Notes under the pieces: generated by a model
The model's input: only the letters and a program-made list of their open reading frames with translations
Database searches by the model: none
What the model was told of the DNA's origin: nothing
Part shown: positions 11,700-59,719 of the stretch, piece by piece
How the letters are laid out: each line of letters opens with the position of its first letter
How positions within the stretch are numbered: the stretch's first letter is position 1
From: Sulfobacillus thermosulfidooxidans DSM 9293
GTDB lineage: Bacteria; Bacillota; Sulfobacillia; Sulfobacillales; Sulfobacillaceae
Direction: 5' to 3'
Assembly (NCBI RefSeq): GCF_900176145.1
Contig: NZ_FWWY01000001.1
Location: 377,517 to 441,516, forward strand
DNA: 64,000 nt
Made by a program: the position numbers and the translations under genes

Positions 11700-11723
11700 A
11701 AAAAAATCCGCATGCGAGCGGAC
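11700..11723 (-). terminator. Expression-platform terminator of the TPP riboswitch
   Basis: Read leftward, GTCCGC pairs with GCGGAT around a six-base loop and is followed at once by a run of T residues (complement of the A-run at 11700-11706). It lies between the aptamer and the first thi gene, so TPP binding is expected to favour termination here. Confidence 0.7.
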
Positions 11724-11730
11724 AACACTC

Positions 11731-11812
11731 GCTTCCCTACGATGGTGCTAACCATATCAGGTTCGAAGGGTACGGCTTATGCCGTTCTCAGTCCCTTTAA
11801 GGACACCCCTAG
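11731..11812 (-). promoter_or_regulatory. TPP (THI-box) riboswitch of the thi operon
   Basis: On the minus strand the RNA starts AGGGGTGTCC, continues through ACTGAGA, then ACCCTTCGAACCTGAT, then ATGGTTAGCACCATCGTAGGGAAG. These are the conserved blocks of the TPP aptamer, in order and with normal spacing. It controls tenI-thiS-thiG-thiF-thiO. The downstream terminator suggests transcriptional control with repression by thiamine diphosphate. Confidence 0.95.
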
Positions 11813-11907
11813 CGATCATTTGATGATATTTTTGGTTTCAGCCGTTCCATGCTTTTTCTACAGAAGTCCCTTTATGCTTTCGGTGAAGACAGGAATGGCT
11901 TGCATTC

Positions 11908-25516: not shown

Positions 25517-25662
25517 CATTTTGAGAGGTTTTGGGAATTTTTCTCCTAAATCTGTGAAAACACGTGATAAATGGTCATTGCACGTGTCAAATGGTTCTAT
25601 TGAGTAATAATTGGTCTCTACATATAATGACAAATTTATCGTTATTTCGTATAGTGTGTCCG

Positions 25663-25818
25663 ACTCCACGCGCCGAATCGTAATTTTTGTAATTACGTAC
25701 GGGGGATTACTAGGATTTTATCCTAGGGTGAATCGTTTGCCATAACGGGCAAATGTAGGGCTCCTTCAGCCCGAACCACAGAACTAACCTCGAAGGCAAT
25801 ATCCGAAGGAAGGGAGCC
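25663..25818 (+). promoter_or_regulatory. ydaO/yuaA cyclic-di-AMP riboswitch
   Basis: The leader carries the conserved blocks of this class in order: CGCCGAATCG, ACGGGGGA, CTAGGGTGAATCG, CAGCCCGAACC and AGAACTAACCTCGAAGGC. Placement before a LysM-NlpC/P60 wall hydrolase is the classic context. The 3' strand of the closing stem contains the AAGGGAG ribosome site of the next gene, only about six bases from its TTG start, and no terminator intervenes. Control is therefore probably at translation initiation, with c-di-AMP expected to switch the gene off. Confidence 0.87.
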
Positions 25819-48911: not shown

Positions 48912-49295
48912 CTATTTTGTTTCCGAGGCATCATTAACTTCCGATATATGAGCATGGGAGTACTTAACCACTTGTACGGGATCTAGCGTTATCAGACCTG
49001 CGTCTACCATTTCATCAAGAACGGGGAGGAACTTATCAATATCTTCTTTCGTATCAACAATTTCTACGACAACGGGCAAATCATCCGATAAATCCAAGAT
49101 ATTAGCTGTATGGATACGAGAGTTAGGCCCATATCCTTCCAGAGCTCGAATCACAGTCGTACCTGCTAATCCATTTTCTCTAGCCTTCAAAACAATCTGG
49201 TGATATAGCGGCTTGTGATGCCAATGTACATCTTCTCCGATCATAATGCGAAGTCGAATTCCATCACCTACTAAGGGTTTATGTGTGTGATGCAT
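48912..49295 (-). CDS. DUF190 PII-like protein under a fluoride riboswitch
   Basis: The 127-residue protein matches DUF190: 'RLRIMIGEDVHWHHKPLYHQIVLKARENGLAGTTVIRALEGYGPNSRIHTANILDLSDDLPVVVEIVDTKEDIDKFLPVLDEMVDAGLITLDPVQVVKY'. The fold is ferredoxin-like, as in PII regulators, and DUF190 proteins are often encoded with the fluoride exporter CrcB. Here no crcB is adjacent, but a fluoride riboswitch with terminator precedes the gene by ~100 bases. It may regulate or assist a fluoride channel encoded elsewhere. The ribosome site AAGGG is weak. Confidence 0.88.
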   Translation of the reverse strand: MHHTHKPLVGDGIRLRIMIGEDVHWHHKPLYHQIVLKARENGLAGTTVIRALEGYGPNSRIHTANILDLSDDLPVVVEIVDTKEDIDKFLPVLDEMVDAGLITLDPVQVVKYSHAHISEVNDASETK

Positions 49296-49393: not shown

Positions 49394-49425
49394 AAAAAAA
49401 CAAAACCTCCTTAGAAAAGGCAGGT
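49394..49425 (-). terminator. Terminator of the DUF190 fluoride riboswitch
   Basis: On the minus strand ACCT-(G)-CCTT, a four-base loop and AAGGAGGT are followed by TTTGTTTTTTT. The 5' arm reuses the bases that form the aptamer pseudoknot, so folding of the two is mutually exclusive. Confidence 0.8.
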
Positions 49426-49473
49426 GTCATTAGCTTGATATCAAGCGGTTGGGTAGCGGTCAACACCATGACC
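49421..49473 (-). promoter_or_regulatory. Fluoride (crcB) riboswitch before DUF190
   Basis: On the minus strand GGTC-ATGGTGTT-GACC forms the first stem and loop, GCTTG-ATAT-CAAGC the second stem, and TAATGACACC follows. Loop bases GGTGT pair with ACACC in the pseudoknot. This matches the crcB motif closely. Fluoride should stabilise the aptamer, block the overlapping terminator and switch DUF190 on. Confidence 0.92.
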
Positions 49474-49493
49474 ATATTAAAGTTACAAATCGA

Positions 49494-52344: not shown

Positions 52345-52803
52345 TTAAATCCGTAACGTCGCAATTATTTTTTTGGGATTCAATAGCAAATCAAGGGCAA
52401 CATAAATATTCGGTACAAAAATATCCGCCACTTGAAGTACTTTGGCGGCTGTTCCCTCTGGGCCACCTGTAACAATGGACAAATCAGCCCGAGTAAACAT
52501 TTCATAATCATTCCAACCATTTCCTACGGCCACCACACCTCCTGCCAACTGTTCAACAAACCGTGCCTTGTCCTTGCCGGTTTTCACGATCTCTACCCGA
52601 ACAGGCAATGCTTTAAGGGCATTATGAACCGAGCCGAAAGAATCCGCTGTTAAAATCACACACGGAAGCAAATTTGAAACACGAAACAGTAAGGGCCCTA
52701 AATCGGGTAACAAATCACCTCCATTGGCTAACGTGCCATTAAAATCAAAAACGGCATGGGCGAGCTGCAGTTCGCCTTGGCCGGGAATATCAATGGTATA
52801 CAT
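52345..52803 (-). CDS. Soluble HAD phosphatase related to P-type ATPase P-domain (COG4087-like)
   Basis: The 152-residue minimal HAD protein has motif I 'AVFDFNGTLANGG', motif II 'VILTADSF', a conserved 'VKTGKDKARFVEQL' lysine and motif IV 'VAVGNGWNDYEMFTRADLSI'. It lacks a cap and membrane parts, like the COG4087 soluble P-type-ATPase-like phosphatases. The substrate is unknown. The ATG at 52803 lies eight bases after GAGG. Confidence 0.82.
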   Translation of the reverse strand: MYTIDIPGQGELQLAHAVFDFNGTLANGGDLLPDLGPLLFRVSNLLPCVILTADSFGSVHNALKALPVRVEIVKTGKDKARFVEQLAGGVVAVGNGWNDYEMFTRADLSIVTGGPEGTAAKVLQVADIFVPNIYVALDLLLNPKKIIATLRI

Positions 52804-52870
52804 CAAGACATCCTCTCCTACTTTTTCATTAACGGCTAATGTCTATCACACCTATGTGTTCAAAGAATTC

Positions 52871-53527
52871 TCACATCAGTGGAATTCTGAGGTTCTCCTT
52901 TGTCTCTTGACACGCCATCAAGGCATCAGCCAAGGAGGGCGATAAAAATTGACCATGGGTTACCATAACCCGGCAATAGCGAGTTAGCCATGTATGCCAC
53001 CACCGCTTACGCTGCCACTCCTTAGGAAAAAATGGTTTCCACCATCCTTTAATCTCAACCAGACCTTGATAATGCGCATAACACACCGAAAAACGTAAGG
53101 CTTGGCGAGCACGAGCCATTTGGACAAGATATCGACTAAATCGTAATATCAACGCCTTTTCGAACTCGCATGCGGAGCAAGACGCATACTCGCCGAGACG
53201 AACGGCAGCTAGAACGTGAGGACAATTGTGATTCATCGTGTCAGGCGATAAAGAATCTGCCCACTGGCATAAGTCCATAATATGCCGCGGACACAAAGTC
53301 CCGTCCTTCTTATTGCCATCATAAGCAGAAGATCTCATCATAACTTCTTGAAAATGGGTAGCTAATCCTCTTTGTTGACCCACACACATCATGCACTGGT
53401 CATCGTCTAAAGAACTTATAAACAAGTGATCCCACTGGGACGCCAAGATTGTTGGATAACGATCCCTTTTCCATAACAGTTTTCTCCAAATCCCTCTTGG
53501 CTTAAAAGCGATATTTCTTCTGGTCAT
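52871..53527 (-). CDS. Cysteine-rich protein translationally coupled to enolase
   Basis: The 218-residue protein shows two similar metal-site modules: 'CMMC...LCPRH' and 'CSAC...VCYAH', that is CxxC followed by CxxH, twice. This resembles DUF6062-type proteins, but the assignment is tentative. It is rich in Trp, Arg and Lys. Its ATG overlaps the enolase stop (ATGA), with AAGGAA upstream, so it is made together with enolase and comes under the same fluoride riboswitch. The function is unknown. Confidence 0.65.
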   Translation of the reverse strand: MTRRNIAFKPRGIWRKLLWKRDRYPTILASQWDHLFISSLDDDQCMMCVGQQRGLATHFQEVMMRSSAYDGNKKDGTLCPRHIMDLCQWADSLSPDTMNHNCPHVLAAVRLGEYASCSACEFEKALILRFSRYLVQMARARQALRFSVCYAHYQGLVEIKGWWKPFFPKEWQRKRWWHTWLTRYCRVMVTHGQFLSPSLADALMACQETKENLRIPLM

Positions 53528-54804
53528 TGTTCCTTCACTCGCTCTGAATCCCATCCAGCAAATGGTAAAGACGAATCCATGGCTTCGATGAGCAACAAAC
53601 GATTATATTTCGCCACACGCTCTCCACGCTGGGGAGCCCCTGCCTTAATAAAGCGAACACCGTCTGCTATGGCCAAATCAACCATCATGGTGTCACACGT
53701 TTCTCCGGAACGATGAGAGACAATCGCGTCCCATCCAGCATCATGAGTCATGGCAATAACTTCACGAGTTTCCGTCAAAGTACCAATTTGATTTAATTTA
53801 ATTAAAACCGCCGACGCTGCGCTTTCTTGAATACCTCGCATAACCCGTTCCTTGTTTGTGACAAAAATGTCATCGCCGACAATATTCACATGCTTAGGCA
53901 TTTCACGCATCAACTCGGCCCAATCAGACCAGGCATCTTCCGATAACCCATCCTCTATCGAAATGAGCGGATAATCCCTGACCCAGGTTTCATACTGATC
54001 AATAAGTTCTTGAGCCGTCACCTCATGGCCATACCATGCATACCGTCCGTTCTGAAATAGTTCACTCGCTGCCACATCAATGCCGAGCGCAATATCCCTT
54101 AACGGACGATATCCAGCCCGTTCGATACTCAAGATGAGCAACTCGAAAACTTCGCGAGGATCCGCGAATTCCGGGGCAAATCCTCCCTCGTCACCCACCG
54201 TCGTCCGGTATCCTTGCTGATGCAATATCTCTTTCAATACTGTGTAAGTGTCAACCCCCATCGCCACTGCTTCTTGCATACTGTCAGCGCCCCCAGGGAT
54301 AAGGAGAAATTCTTGAATTGGCATCTTCGTATCCGCGTGAACACCGCCGTTAATCACATTCATTTGGGGAATGGGAAGCCCAGGGGAGTAGTGAGAATTT
54401 AAATAGGCATAGGCAGGTAGGTTGCGATACGTAGCTGCCGCAGCACTCACGGCCAATGATACTCCTAAAATACTATTAGCTCCCCATCTGTGTTTGGAAG
54501 CGGTACCGTCGCCCCCGATTAACTGGTGATCAATATCGTCTTGTTGTTCTGGGTCTAACCCGAGAATAACAGGCCTAATCAAGTGATTCACGACGTGCAC
54601 CGCTCGCATGACGTCTCCCCGTCGATACAGACCAGACTGATCCCGAATTTCTTGAGCTTCATACCGTCCCGTAGATGCCCCGTGAGGAACAGCTGCTCCA
54701 CCTTTATGTCCGGTATCTAAGGTCACTTCGACAAAGAGGGTCGCATCAGCACGGGAATCTAAAATTTGGTACGCGTGAACATCGGCAATGGCTGCGTGAG
54801 GCAT
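53524..54804 (-). CDS. eno: Enolase under a fluoride riboswitch
   Basis: The 426-residue enzyme matches enolase: 'ILDSRADATLFVEVTLD', 'AAVPHGASTGRYEAQEIRD', 'VGDEGGFAPEF', 'ISIEDGLSEDAWSDWAELM', 'IVGDDIFVTNKERVMRGI' and 'VSHRSGETCDTMMVDLAIA', with the Mg2+ ligands and catalytic Lys/Glu. It converts 2-phosphoglycerate to phosphoenolpyruvate and is strongly inhibited by fluoride plus phosphate. Raising its level when fluoride is present would offset inhibition, which fits the riboswitch upstream. A Cys-rich gene follows with a four-base overlap. Confidence 0.97.
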   Translation of the reverse strand: MPHAAIADVHAYQILDSRADATLFVEVTLDTGHKGGAAVPHGASTGRYEAQEIRDQSGLYRRGDVMRAVHVVNHLIRPVILGLDPEQQDDIDHQLIGGDGTASKHRWGANSILGVSLAVSAAAATYRNLPAYAYLNSHYSPGLPIPQMNVINGGVHADTKMPIQEFLLIPGGADSMQEAVAMGVDTYTVLKEILHQQGYRTTVGDEGGFAPEFADPREVFELLILSIERAGYRPLRDIALGIDVAASELFQNGRYAWYGHEVTAQELIDQYETWVRDYPLISIEDGLSEDAWSDWAELMREMPKHVNIVGDDIFVTNKERVMRGIQESAASAVLIKLNQIGTLTETREVIAMTHDAGWDAIVSHRSGETCDTMMVDLAIADGVRFIKAGAPQRGERVAKYNRLLLIEAMDSSLPFAGWDSERVKEQ

Positions 54805-54841
54805 CCTCTTTCCTCCCTTGCGGATTATTTCTGGGAAGATG

Positions 54842-54874
54842 AAAAAATAACACCTTCCCCAGAGAAGGTGTTAT
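54842..54874 (-). terminator. Terminator of the enolase fluoride riboswitch
   Basis: On the minus strand an 11-pair stem (ATAACACCTTC with GAAGGTGTTAT, loop TCTGGG) is followed by six T residues. Its 5' arm contains the AACACC used by the aptamer pseudoknot, so ligand binding competes with termination. Confidence 0.9.
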
Positions 54875-54923
54875 TAGCGGCTACATCCGCATTTCGGCTC
54901 ACGCCAGGGCCAACACCATGACC
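54864..54923 (-). promoter_or_regulatory. Fluoride (crcB) riboswitch before eno
   Basis: On the minus strand GGTC-ATGGTGTT-GGCC forms the first stem and loop. A GGC-GTGA-GCC hairpin and a GCGG-ATGTAG-CCGC hairpin follow, then TAATAACACCTTC. Loop GGTGTT pairs with AACACC. The loop is identical to that of the DUF190 riboswitch. Two small hairpins in place of one make it a slightly unusual member. Fluoride should allow read-through into eno. Confidence 0.88.
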
Positions 54924-54936
54924 GATTATGATTAGT

Positions 54937-54966
54937 ATTGTGCCACGGTCGACTTTGTGTGGTCAA
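54937..54966 (-). promoter_or_regulatory. Promoter of the eno unit
   Basis: On the minus strand TTGACC (54966-54961), 18 bases, CACAAT (54942-54937). Transcription would begin just before the fluoride aptamer. Confidence 0.6.
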
Positions 54967-55019
54967 CGTCTAAATTCTTAAATGCATCACGAAGTATGAT
55001 TCTTATGGCGTAGATTTTC

Positions 55020-55048
55020 TTGACAGCATCAACAACACTCCCTAAACT
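55020..55048 (+). promoter_or_regulatory. Promoter of the CBS-like gene
   Basis: Perfect -35 TTGACA (55020-55025), 17-base spacer, -10 TAAACT (55043-55048). It is back-to-back with the enolase promoter, about 54 bases away, and 24 bases before the fluoride aptamer. Confidence 0.65.
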
Positions 55049-55071
55049 AAAATTAAATTATCAATGCAAAC

Positions 55072-55124
55072 GGGCCATGGAGCTGGCCTTATTAAATGTC
55101 GTTCTCGCGGCTAATGGCTCCTGA
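55072..55124 (+). promoter_or_regulatory. Fluoride (crcB) riboswitch before the CBS-like gene
   Basis: GGCC-ATGGAGCT-GGCC (55073-55088) forms the first stem and loop. GTCG pairs with CGGC in the second stem, and TAATGGCTCCTGAT follows. Loop GGAGC (55079-55083) pairs with GCTCC (55117-55121). These are the conserved crcB elements with a compensated change in the pseudoknot relative to the two other copies (GGAGC/GCTCC in place of GGTGT/ACACC). Confidence 0.92.
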
Positions 55125-55148
55125 TTATTTCCAATCAGGGGTTTTTTT
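55118..55148 (+). terminator. Terminator of the CBS-like gene's fluoride riboswitch
   Basis: CTCCTGATT pairs with AATCAGGGG (nine pairs with one G-T) around ATTTCC, then seven T residues. The 5' arm overlaps the pseudoknot bases CTCC, so aptamer and terminator compete. Confidence 0.92.
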
Positions 55149-55176
55149 ATTCCCTGATTCCGAAAGGGGAATTATC

Positions 55177-55668
55177 ATGAGCGTAGAACGCCTCCAATCT
55201 GAGTCATGGATTCTGCCCATTACGTCTAGCGATTGGCTGGAAGAACACCAGCTATTCAATTTAACTCCACATTACTTTCGTAAACTCACCGCTCCGGAAT
55301 TTACGATTGCGGTGGTCAACCGTCATAACCGGCTGATTGGTACCATTGGGTATCGGGAAGTTTTACAGGAACTTTTAGATACGGGATCGCAAGTGACGCA
55401 AAGTCTATGGCCCCCATTTACCTCGGTTGAAGAATCCGAGTGGTCATGGATGAAACGGATTCAAAACTTTACACCCATTCCGGCTGGACTCTTAATGCGT
55501 CCCGCTCCCCCTATATTGACCCCGCCGTGGGATTTGTGGCGCGCTGCAAGTCTATTGACCATGACCTCTCATGACGTGCTGTGGGCCGTTGATGAACGCA
55601 AAGTTCCGCAGGGTAAGATTACTATTGGGTCATTACAATATCATCCGGAATGGAATATGCTCACCTAA
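55177..55668 (+). CDS. CBS-domain-like protein controlled by a fluoride riboswitch
   Basis: The 163-residue soluble protein looks like a tandem CBS module. 'EFTIAVVNRHNRLIGTIGYREVLQELL' (~50-76) resembles a CBS strand-strand-helix, and 'GLLMRPAPPILTPPWDLWRAASLLTMTSHDVLWAVDERKVPQGKITIGSLQYH' (~110-160) a second. CBS pairs bind adenine nucleotides and often gate channels or enzymes. No channel is fused. The ATG at 55177 follows AAAGGGG and lies after the riboswitch terminator; earlier in-frame ATGs fall inside the RNA elements. It could sense nucleotide status during fluoride stress. The CBS assignment is by pattern only. Confidence 0.65.
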   Translation: MSVERLQSESWILPITSSDWLEEHQLFNLTPHYFRKLTAPEFTIAVVNRHNRLIGTIGYREVLQELLDTGSQVTQSLWPPFTSVEESEWSWMKRIQNFTPIPAGLLMRPAPPILTPPWDLWRAASLLTMTSHDVLWAVDERKVPQGKITIGSLQYHPEWNMLT

Positions 55669-57320: not shown

Positions 57321-58715
57321 TTGCCAGTGGAAACAAAAGACGTATGTCTCACGGCATCCTTAAGCAACCTTAAAGCCATCTTAAGCCATCTTAAGCAGCA
57401 AGAAGGAGTGATTAACACGACCTCAAAAACCCTTTTCCCGGTCTCGTTTGAAACCATTACCCCAGACACCGTGCTCAAAGCCTATCATGACATTCGAGCG
57501 ACAACGATGAACTTAACAATGCCGCTCGAAACCGAAGATTATGTCATTCAAAGTTGTCCTGAAGCAAGTCCGCCAAAATGGCATTTAGCCCATACGACCT
57601 GGTTTTTTGAGACATTCATTTTACAGCCATTCTGTGATACCTATCGTCCCGAACAAGATGCCTACCGCATGTTATTTAATTCCTATTATGAACAAGTCGG
57701 CCCTTACTTTCCAAGAGACCGTCGGGGAACATTATCTCGCCCCACTGTTCAGGACATCATACACTATCGGCAAAAAGTTGATGATCAAATCACGCAATGG
57801 ATTCCTAGGTTATCTATGCCGCTTTTCAGCCGGATTGCTGAGCTTATTGGCTGGGGACTCCATCATGAACAACAGCATCAAGAACTTTTGATGATGGACA
57901 TTTTGGCTAATTTTGCTGCAAATCCCCTTTTCCCCGCTTATCAGGATAACCCCTCAACCTGGGAGTCTTTAACCATCTCTCCTTGGCAATGGCTCGAAAT
58001 TCCGGAAGGAATCACGTTTTTAGGTTACGAGGGAACAGGGTTTTCCTATGATAATGAAAAGCCTCGGCACAAAGTCTGGTTAACCCCCGCCCGCATTGCC
58101 AACCGTACTGTAACCAATCACGAATTTCTTGAATTCATTTTAGATGGCGGCTACCAAAATCCCACACTGTGGCTTTCGGATGGTTGGCATTGGTTATTGG
58201 ACCATCATTGGCAACATCCCCGATATTGGCACCAAATCGACGGAGAATGGTTTGAATTCACCCTCTTGGGTCTTCTACCCTTACAACTCAATGCACCCGT
58301 CGTGCATCTCAGCTATTATGAAGCGGACGCTTTCGCTAGGTGGCGAGGGGGACGCTTACCCACCGAAGCCGAGTGGGAATGGGCAGCCACTCATCTGCCG
58401 ATAACGGCCAGCAATTTTCTAGAATCCCAAATCTTTCATCCTGAACCGGTAATAGGCCCCCTAAATACGATGCTCGCCACCTTAGGCGGGGTATGGGAAT
58501 GGACCCAAAGTCCTTACGCCCCATATCCAGGCTATCATGCTCCGAAGGGTGCTTTAGGTGAATACAACGGAAAATTCATGAACGGACAATATGTTCTGCG
58601 TGGTGGATGTGCCCTCACTCCTCAGTCACATATTCGCACCACCTACCGAAACTTTTTTTCTCCGGAATCCACATGGGCTTTTTCAGGATTACGATTGGCA
58701 GGAGATGTCCAATGA
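57321..58715 (+). CDS. egtB: Ergothioneine biosynthesis sulfoxide synthase EgtB
   Basis: The ~464-residue enzyme has an N-terminal DinB-like domain with 'PPKWHLAHTTWFFETFIL' and the iron site 'GWGLHHEQQHQELLMMDIL' (HxxxHxE). A C-terminal formylglycine-enzyme-like domain follows ('ITFLGYEGTGFSYDNEKPRHKVWL', 'RWRGGRLPTEAEWEWAA', 'VLRGGCALTPQSHIRTTYRNFF'). It joins a thiol to trimethylhistidine using O2. The start is uncertain: TTG 57321 lacks a ribosome site, and AAGGAG at 57403-57408 has no ideal start after it. A tandem repeat (AGCCATCTTA) lies in the first codons. It overlaps egtD by four bases. Confidence 0.9.
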   Translation: MPVETKDVCLTASLSNLKAILSHLKQQEGVINTTSKTLFPVSFETITPDTVLKAYHDIRATTMNLTMPLETEDYVIQSCPEASPPKWHLAHTTWFFETFILQPFCDTYRPEQDAYRMLFNSYYEQVGPYFPRDRRGTLSRPTVQDIIHYRQKVDDQITQWIPRLSMPLFSRIAELIGWGLHHEQQHQELLMMDILANFAANPLFPAYQDNPSTWESLTISPWQWLEIPEGITFLGYEGTGFSYDNEKPRHKVWLTPARIANRTVTNHEFLEFILDGGYQNPTLWLSDGWHWLLDHHWQHPRYWHQIDGEWFEFTLLGLLPLQLNAPVVHLSYYEADAFARWRGGRLPTEAEWEWAATHLPITASNFLESQIFHPEPVIGPLNTMLATLGGVWEWTQSPYAPYPGYHAPKGALGEYNGKFMNGQYVLRGGCALTPQSHIRTTYRNFFSPESTWAFSGLRLAGDVQ

Positions 58716-59719
58716 ACCAAGAACGATCACGATATCATATTATTGACCGTCAACCTAAATCGGAAGATATTTTAACGGAAGTGTTAGATGGCCTGTCCCA
58801 ACGTCCCAAGCGTTTGCCCCCAAAGTTATTTTACGACGCTCAAGGATCCTTGCTGTTCGAAGCAATTACCAAGCAGCCTGAATATTATCTCACCCGTGCT
58901 GAACAAGCGATCTTAGATCACATCCAAGAACCTTTACAGGCCCTGGTGCCTCATCCCGTTACCCTGATCGAACTGGGCAGCGGTAGCGGCGCCAAGACAC
59001 GCCAGTTGCTTCGCCATTTGCCCCAAGCCACCACATATGTTGCCATTGATATATCGTTGGATGCGTTACACTCTGCCTTATCCGCATTGTCTCAGGAGTT
59101 TTTGCACCGTCAGTTCATTGGAGTCGCCGCAGATTATGGAGCAGCGTTCTCGTTGCCTCAAACTATCGACAAAAATCCCAAGCTTTTGGTCTATTTAGGA
59201 TCAACGCTTGGCAATTTTGATCCTCCAGAGGCGCAAGAGTTTCTTGAACGGTGGGCCCAAAACCTATCCTCCTGTGATGCTTTATTGATTGGCATTGACT
59301 TAAAAAAGCAAGCCAGCATCCTGCATCATGCTTATAATGACGCGAAAGGGATTACGGCAGCGTTCAATCGCAATGTTCTGACTCGCATTAACCGCGAGTG
59401 CGGCGCCAACTTTCCCGTCAACCATTTTAGCCATCATGCCGAATACCAAGCTCAAAATGGACGGATTGCGATGTATTTGGTTAGTCATTATGCTCATCGA
59501 GTGAGCATTGCCGGGCATGAATTTGTCTTTGAGCAGGGTGAACGCATCCTCACCGAGTACTCCTATAAATACACCATTACCGAGTTTCAAACCTTGGCAC
59601 GTCAAGCTGGGTGGATACCCCTTGCCGTCTGGACCGATCCACGTAATGCCTTTAGTCTTCATTATTTACGTCCCTTTCCGAAGGGAACAAAGGATGGAAT
59701 CCATGAAAACGAAATTTGA
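58712..59719 (+). CDS. egtD: Histidine N-alpha-methyltransferase EgtD
   Basis: The 335-residue enzyme has the family opening 'RPKRLPPKLFYDAQGSLLFEAITKQPEYYLTRAEQAIL', the SAM site 'TLIELGSGSGAKTRQLLRHL', 'YLGSTLGNFDP' and the C-terminal 'EYSYKYTITEFQTLARQAGWIPLAVWTDPRNAFSLHYLRP'. It trimethylates histidine, the first step to ergothioneine. AGGAG is seven bases before the ATG, which overlaps the egtB stop (ATGA). With egtB it forms a minimal ergothioneine module; egtA, egtC and egtE are not present in the window. Confidence 0.95.
   Translation: MNQERSRYHIIDRQPKSEDILTEVLDGLSQRPKRLPPKLFYDAQGSLLFEAITKQPEYYLTRAEQAILDHIQEPLQALVPHPVTLIELGSGSGAKTRQLLRHLPQATTYVAIDISLDALHSALSALSQEFLHRQFIGVAADYGAAFSLPQTIDKNPKLLVYLGSTLGNFDPPEAQEFLERWAQNLSSCDALLIGIDLKKQASILHHAYNDAKGITAAFNRNVLTRINRECGANFPVNHFSHHAEYQAQNGRIAMYLVSHYAHRVSIAGHEFVFEQGERILTEYSYKYTITEFQTLARQAGWIPLAVWTDPRNAFSLHYLRPFPKGTKDGIHENEI

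Follow-up and report, generated by a model that had tools for sequence, protein, structure and literature searches.

The toxicity of fluoride is greatest under low-pH conditions, in which HF passes through membranes; enolase is an enzyme that fluoride inhibits. Among the targets of fluoride riboswitches, enolase is already known (PMC11139923), and a fluoride-linked enolase target has been reported with 176-fold induction (PMC5533749). Fluoride-ON riboswitches that act by transcription termination have a classical layout (PMC2864571, PMC8752731) in which the terminator overlaps a strand of the pseudoknot, an arrangement expected to raise expression upon ligand binding (PMC2864571), and a linchpin is needed for fluoride locking (PMC8752731). 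The fluoride-resistance operon of Enterobacter cloacae FRM, in which one riboswitch drives an enolase together with fluoride-inhibited enzymes in one operon that includes crcB, is a described system of this kind (PMC5533749). As for the organism studied here, fluoride reportedly causes complete inhibition of S. thermosulfidooxidans during sulfur oxidation (PMC12831704). Within the part of the literature covered by our search, no paper dealt with pairs of fluoride riboswitches in divergent orientation, and none had Sulfobacillus fluoride riboswitches as its topic.

The window analyzed in this study is a 64,000-nucleotide stretch of the 3.86 Mb genome of S. thermosulfidooxidans DSM 9293, in which a gap of 370 bp between an enolase gene (minus strand) and a two-CBS gene (plus strand) holds two divergent leaders. 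The likeness to the crcB motif (RF01734) extends to P1, the loop AUGG, the pseudoknot, the linchpin-type A and U, the overlapping terminator and enolase as a target; in contrast to that motif, two aptamers stand back to back in one gap, and the enolase aptamer, which carries an inserted P1-P3 hairpin and has AUAA preceding the pseudoknot strand, escapes the Rfam model. The locus shares a riboswitch-driven enolase with the E. cloacae operon, but here there are separate units, each with its own riboswitch, and the two crcB exporter genes of the window genome, a tandem pair at G000:C1:2348209-2348893 (L074), have no aptamer match nearby with Rfam or with our family model R1.

Two divergent aptamers in one gap

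The features of the locus, in window coordinates, are as follows.

52345-52806, minus: HAD-type (P-type-ATPase-like) phosphatase (PF08282 over cut-off)
52871-53554, minus: cysteine-rich protein c15, overlapping the enolase stop and kept in relatives of the genus
53524-54804, minus: second, diverged enolase (PF00113, PF03952, TIGR01060)
54833-54841, minus: post-terminator segment CATCTTCCC, with two predicted alternative partners, the terminator 3' arm and the SD (54811-54817)
54846-54875, minus: intrinsic terminator with pseudoknot strand AACACC (13 pairs, -15.7 kcal/mol, z -4.9)
54867-54923, minus: fluoride aptamer of the enolase leader, from P1 to the pseudoknot 3' strand (descriptor and model R1)
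54937-54966, minus: promoter-like site TTGACC-18-CACAAT (consensus match only, 9/12)
55020-55048, plus: promoter-like site TTGACA-17-TAAACT (consensus match only, 10/12)
55064-55130, plus: fluoride aptamer of the CBS-like gene (RF01734, 34.9 bits)
55116-55143, plus: intrinsic terminator with pseudoknot strand GCTCC (11 pairs, -13.4 kcal/mol, z -2.9)
55149-55159, plus: post-terminator segment ATTCCCTGATT, with two predicted alternative partners, the terminator 3' arm and the SD (55163-55172)
55177-55668, plus: stand-alone two-CBS protein, 163 aa (family profile)

An earlier note on this DNA had placed two back-to-back fluoride aptamers in the gap and proposed an RF01734 search of both strands as a check. 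That search recovered the plus-strand aptamer, only just above the gathering score of 34 bits, and gave no match to the minus-strand aptamer in the gap even at E<=1. Matches in the gap to BTnc231 and to the RpsF leader were dismissed, being far below their own cut-offs. On the minus strand, a pseudoknot-aware descriptor identified P1 GGTC/GGCC, the loop ATGGTGTT, the joining stretch CTAATA and a pseudoknot strand ACACC, the aptamer reading GGTC-ATGGTGTT-GGCC ... GCTAATAACACC. Recognizing that this lax descriptor yields about one chance match per 64 kb and is thus weak alone, we applied a stricter test with a held-out covariance model, R1, built from an alignment (A1) of 39 other aptamers of the host's bacterial family, with the minus-strand aptamer and its three orthologous loci within the genus excluded. 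R1 matched the held-out aptamer at 54864-54932 (minus) with 31.0 bits (E-values of 2e-5 over 340 kb and 1.2e-7 over 2 kb) and also detected the held-out orthologues at L052, L053 and L054 (29.3, 35.8 and 31.5 bits, respectively); the plus-strand aptamer, itself part of the R1 training set, scored 48.3 bits. Both aptamers are therefore present where the note had put them, one by RF01734 and the other by the held-out family model, and the Rfam model misses an aptamer variant.

P1 and a pseudoknot of 5-6 bp are found in both aptamers, and the pseudoknots are exactly those claimed, GGTGTT/AACACC on the minus strand and GGAGC/GCTCC on the plus strand. Compared with the plus-strand aptamer, that of the enolase has an extra hairpin after P1 and ahead of P3 (window sequence GGC-GTGA-GCC; loops GCAA in L053 and ACAA in L054) and AUAA instead of AUGG before the pseudoknot strand. 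Folding of the bare aptamers with RNAfold, which does not represent pseudoknots, yielded no signal (z of -0.7 and -0.4). In both leaders the pseudoknot 3' strand lies inside the 5' arm of the intrinsic terminator, in line with the overlap described in the note, and because of this overlap both aptamers are predicted to be ON switches. The note had also assigned a promoter to each aptamer; promoter-like sites do occur on both strands, by consensus match only, with three such sites seen vs. 1.0 expected in shuffles.

The claim that the pseudoknot is conserved by covariation was borne out on the 39 family aptamers of A1, as evidenced by: 1) standard pairs in 98.3% of the pseudoknot; 2) double-sided changes at 3 of the 6 pseudoknot pairs (GC:36/AU:3, AU:21/UA:18 and UA:25/CG:13); 3) a fall in pairing to 36-58% when the 3' strands were slid; and 4) a covariation score reached by 0 of 500 shuffles, a count which overstates the significance and is no probability because the A1 rows are related. 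All rows except L063:1164 had been chosen by Rfam, a selection that hardly favours the pseudoknot result because the printed structure line of RF01734 has no pseudoknot. Counting was limited to P1 and the pseudoknot, P3 having been misaligned by MAFFT in the aptamers of the short CBS class. An A before and a U after the pseudoknot strand are invariant columns in A1 and are present in both window aptamers; by our own mapping, these nucleotides are probably of the A40-U48 linchpin type.

Genes behind the aptamers and competing readings

The plus-strand gene starts with ATG at 55177, preceded by AAAGGGGA. Pfam CBS (PF00571) scored 18.8 bits on the window protein, under its 24-bit gathering score, and weak CBS matches were seen in 8 of 11 relatives; the family profile matched the stand-alone two-CBS proteins CBSX1/2 over residues 39-153 (CBSX2 3e-5) and also the CBS module of MgtE, in agreement with the note, which had called the gene CBS-like. 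Unlike these proteins, the window protein is very diverged and fluoride-linked, it has a conserved LWP motif between its halves, and its type is restricted to the host's bacterial family among the sampled genomes, with no relative outside that family at 1e-8 among 299 genomes sampled from the phylum. Each of the 11 relatives in the alignment is preceded by a same-class fluoride aptamer (loop AUGGAGCU, pseudoknot GGAGC/GCUCC), with a c5 gene intervening in L055. An AlphaFold model of the protein made from three sequences had a pLDDT of 31, too low to be of use. A role in nucleotide or Mg sensing during fluoride stress is a guess on our part.

The other flanking gene is an enolase, as the note had it: it scored 489 bits with TIGR01060 (cut-off 300) and retains the catalytic and Mg-binding motifs, and another, more canonical enolase of the genome is at G000:C1:693734. 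In a tree of the family, one branch (support 85/82) sets nine riboswitch-island enolases, the window copy included, apart from 29 others, which, given the long branches in the tree, suggests with moderate confidence that the island enolases form a separate group. Residues invariant in the 29 others are dropped in the island enolases, for example E in SHRSGETE, replaced by C/T/S/D/V (C370 in the window), and, in all but one, H in GASTGxHEA, replaced by Y/R/Q (Y48 in the window). The riboswitched enolase could possibly be a fluoride-tolerant enzyme. The c15 gene is likely in the same operon as the enolase, and so is the gene of the HAD-type phosphatase, relatives of which occur in other fluoride islands. 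None of the c15 copies tested matched a Pfam family above cut-off; c15 proteins have CPRH and CxxC motifs and recur in fluoride islands, other copies being at L073 2247-2978 (plus) and L072 51-527 (plus). In the relatives, the enolase is internally deleted in one genome (G003) and gone at two loci of another (G002), with the aptamer persisting. At these loci (L053 15703-15757, plus; L054 15631-15686, minus; L052 14185-15099, minus), the retained aptamer now precedes the c15 and HAD genes.

We consider it very probable that the gap contains two divergent crcB-type fluoride riboswitches, each with its own promoter, that terminate transcription without fluoride and let both transcripts be completed with fluoride. 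Without fluoride, the pseudoknot 3' strand of the nascent leader would fold into the intrinsic terminator, and transcription would stop; at high intracellular fluoride, Mg-bound fluoride would lock the pseudoknot and block the terminator, and both transcripts would be finished, with the minus transcript encoding a spare enolase, the c15 protein and the HAD-type phosphatase, and the plus transcript the small two-CBS protein. The aptamers, the covarying pseudoknot, the terminators, the identities of the genes and the recurrent pairing are computational results; fluoride binding, the ON behaviour and the co-induction of both units are what we infer for this locus. One competing view is that the minus strand bears a chance resemblance to an aptamer and that the leaders are ordinary divergent terminated leaders with no riboswitch. 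The chance matches of the lax descriptor would allow for this, but the held-out model score, the conservation among orthologues, the fluoride-type neighbourhood and the location immediately upstream of an overlapping terminator and an enolase make it hardly credible. Decay is the other, and the enolase aptamer would then be a relic that has ceased to respond to fluoride, in keeping with its position below Rfam detection and with the deleted or absent enolase in the relatives. However, neither the window copy nor any of its three orthologues in the genus has lost P1, the pseudoknot, the linchpin-type nucleotides or the terminator, the enolase leader is 93% identical to that of L052, and the aptamer has been kept even where the enolase was lost; we therefore regard decay as improbable, if somewhat less so than chance resemblance.

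A possible second layer of control

Beyond the two riboswitches, the segments that follow the terminators may have a function of their own. The ATTCCCTGATT segment is conserved in 4 orthologues, and alternative pairings are predicted in both leaders, namely AAUCAGGG/CCCUGAUU against AUUCCC/GGGAAU in the CBS leader (plus) and GGGAAGGUG/CAUCUUCCC against UCUUCCC/GGGAGGA in the enolase leader, hinting at joint transcriptional and translational control. As an extension of the riboswitch reading and not a replacement for it, each leader might be a four-segment relay governing termination and translation, with the pseudoknot 3' strand/terminator 5' arm as segment 1, the terminator 3' arm as segment 2, the post-terminator stretch as segment 3 and the SD as segment 4. 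In the OFF state, 1:2 would pair along with 3:4, so that transcription is terminated and the SD hidden in leaked mRNA; in the ON state, the pseudoknot would pair with 1, and 2 with 3, leaving the SD free.

Several observations favour such a relay. Both pairings were jointly met in about 0.001 of shuffles for the two window leaders (0.016 for the enolase leader of L052), the predicted SD exposure in the enolase leader rose from 0.02 to 0.61 with segment 1 held as in the pseudoknot, and, in three relatives, conservation of the CBS leader is 88-94% over its post-terminator stretch, vs. 72-83% for the gene and 65-75% for the inter-aptamer region. On the other hand, the relay was noticed only after data inspection, the predicted SD exposure in the window CBS leader rises just from 0.24 to 0.30, the 3:4 pairing alone is not rare (0.05-0.2 of shuffles), and visual inspection of other genera did not reveal the relay. 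We surmise that a relay is quite conceivable, while leaning against it; the conserved segments and pairings are suggestive only of a second control layer.

Recurrence of the pairs and a putative fluoride regulon

Aptamers were listed with Rfam and R1 across 34 genomes of the host's bacterial family, yielding 120 aptamers in 30 of them. The note had called a back-to-back pair unusual. This did not hold for this family, as neighbouring aptamers within 300 bp formed nine divergent, one tandem and no convergent pairs, the divergent ones being spread over nine genomes and four genera with varying partners:

CBS-like / enolase: G000 (window genome) and G003
CBS-like / c15 gene: G002
CBS-like / two MutS-like ATPases: G009 and G024
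pyrophosphatase / enolase: G008
MFS / small protein: G001
c5 protein / another gene: G017

G030 has a CBS-class aptamer opposite the MutS-like pair, with no intact CBS-like gene behind that aptamer in the sequence piece read. The divergent arrangement is a variant that recurs within an already known class of riboswitch and no new class.

The note had further described the locus as a fluoride-response hub; with six fluoride aptamers in the window genome, a better description is that of a single node in a larger fluoride regulon. A third fluoride riboswitch of the window (49414-49482, minus, 44.2 bits) lies upstream of a DUF190 gene (48912-49295), another aptamer of the genome is upstream of NADH-dehydrogenase/formate-hydrogenlyase-like genes (G000:C1:544892), and further ones are at 1736046 and 2251053. 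The first of these (L073 2047-2120; G000:C1:1736046-1736119, plus), an aptamer with a terminator, was missed by Rfam and lies ahead of a c15-like gene and an MFS fragment. The window also harbors a TPP riboswitch (11717-11820, minus, 77.1 bits), a c-di-AMP riboswitch (25661-25813, plus, 52.1 bits) and, at 57321-59719 (plus), two ORFs that are EgtB- and EgtD-like by eye (ergothioneine synthesis). The largest number in a relative, 16 aptamers, was found in the genome G027; one of its contigs, of 17 kb (L056, G027:C67), has seven Rfam fluoride aptamers, all on one strand, preceding pyrophosphatase, YaaH, MutS-like, MFS and other genes. Neighbouring and related fluoride islands contain pyrophosphatase, HAD, MutS-like, DUF190, CrcB and formate-hydrogenlyase-like genes.

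That related bacteria keep such pairs points to a large, little-described network of fluoride-response genes. In its broadest form, which we put forward tentatively and deem rather unlikely as a whole, this would be a family-wide regulon of many separately riboswitched units, often in divergent pairs, with leaders that act, at least in this genus, as four-segment relays on both termination and ribosome access; it would induce a fluoride-adapted enolase along with a dedicated two-CBS protein. A bacterial family with up to 16 fluoride riboswitches per genome and recurrent divergent pairs is well suited for finding resistance proteins beyond exporters, and the two-CBS protein, the cysteine-rich c15 and the second enolase clade can be named as candidate members of the fluoride response.
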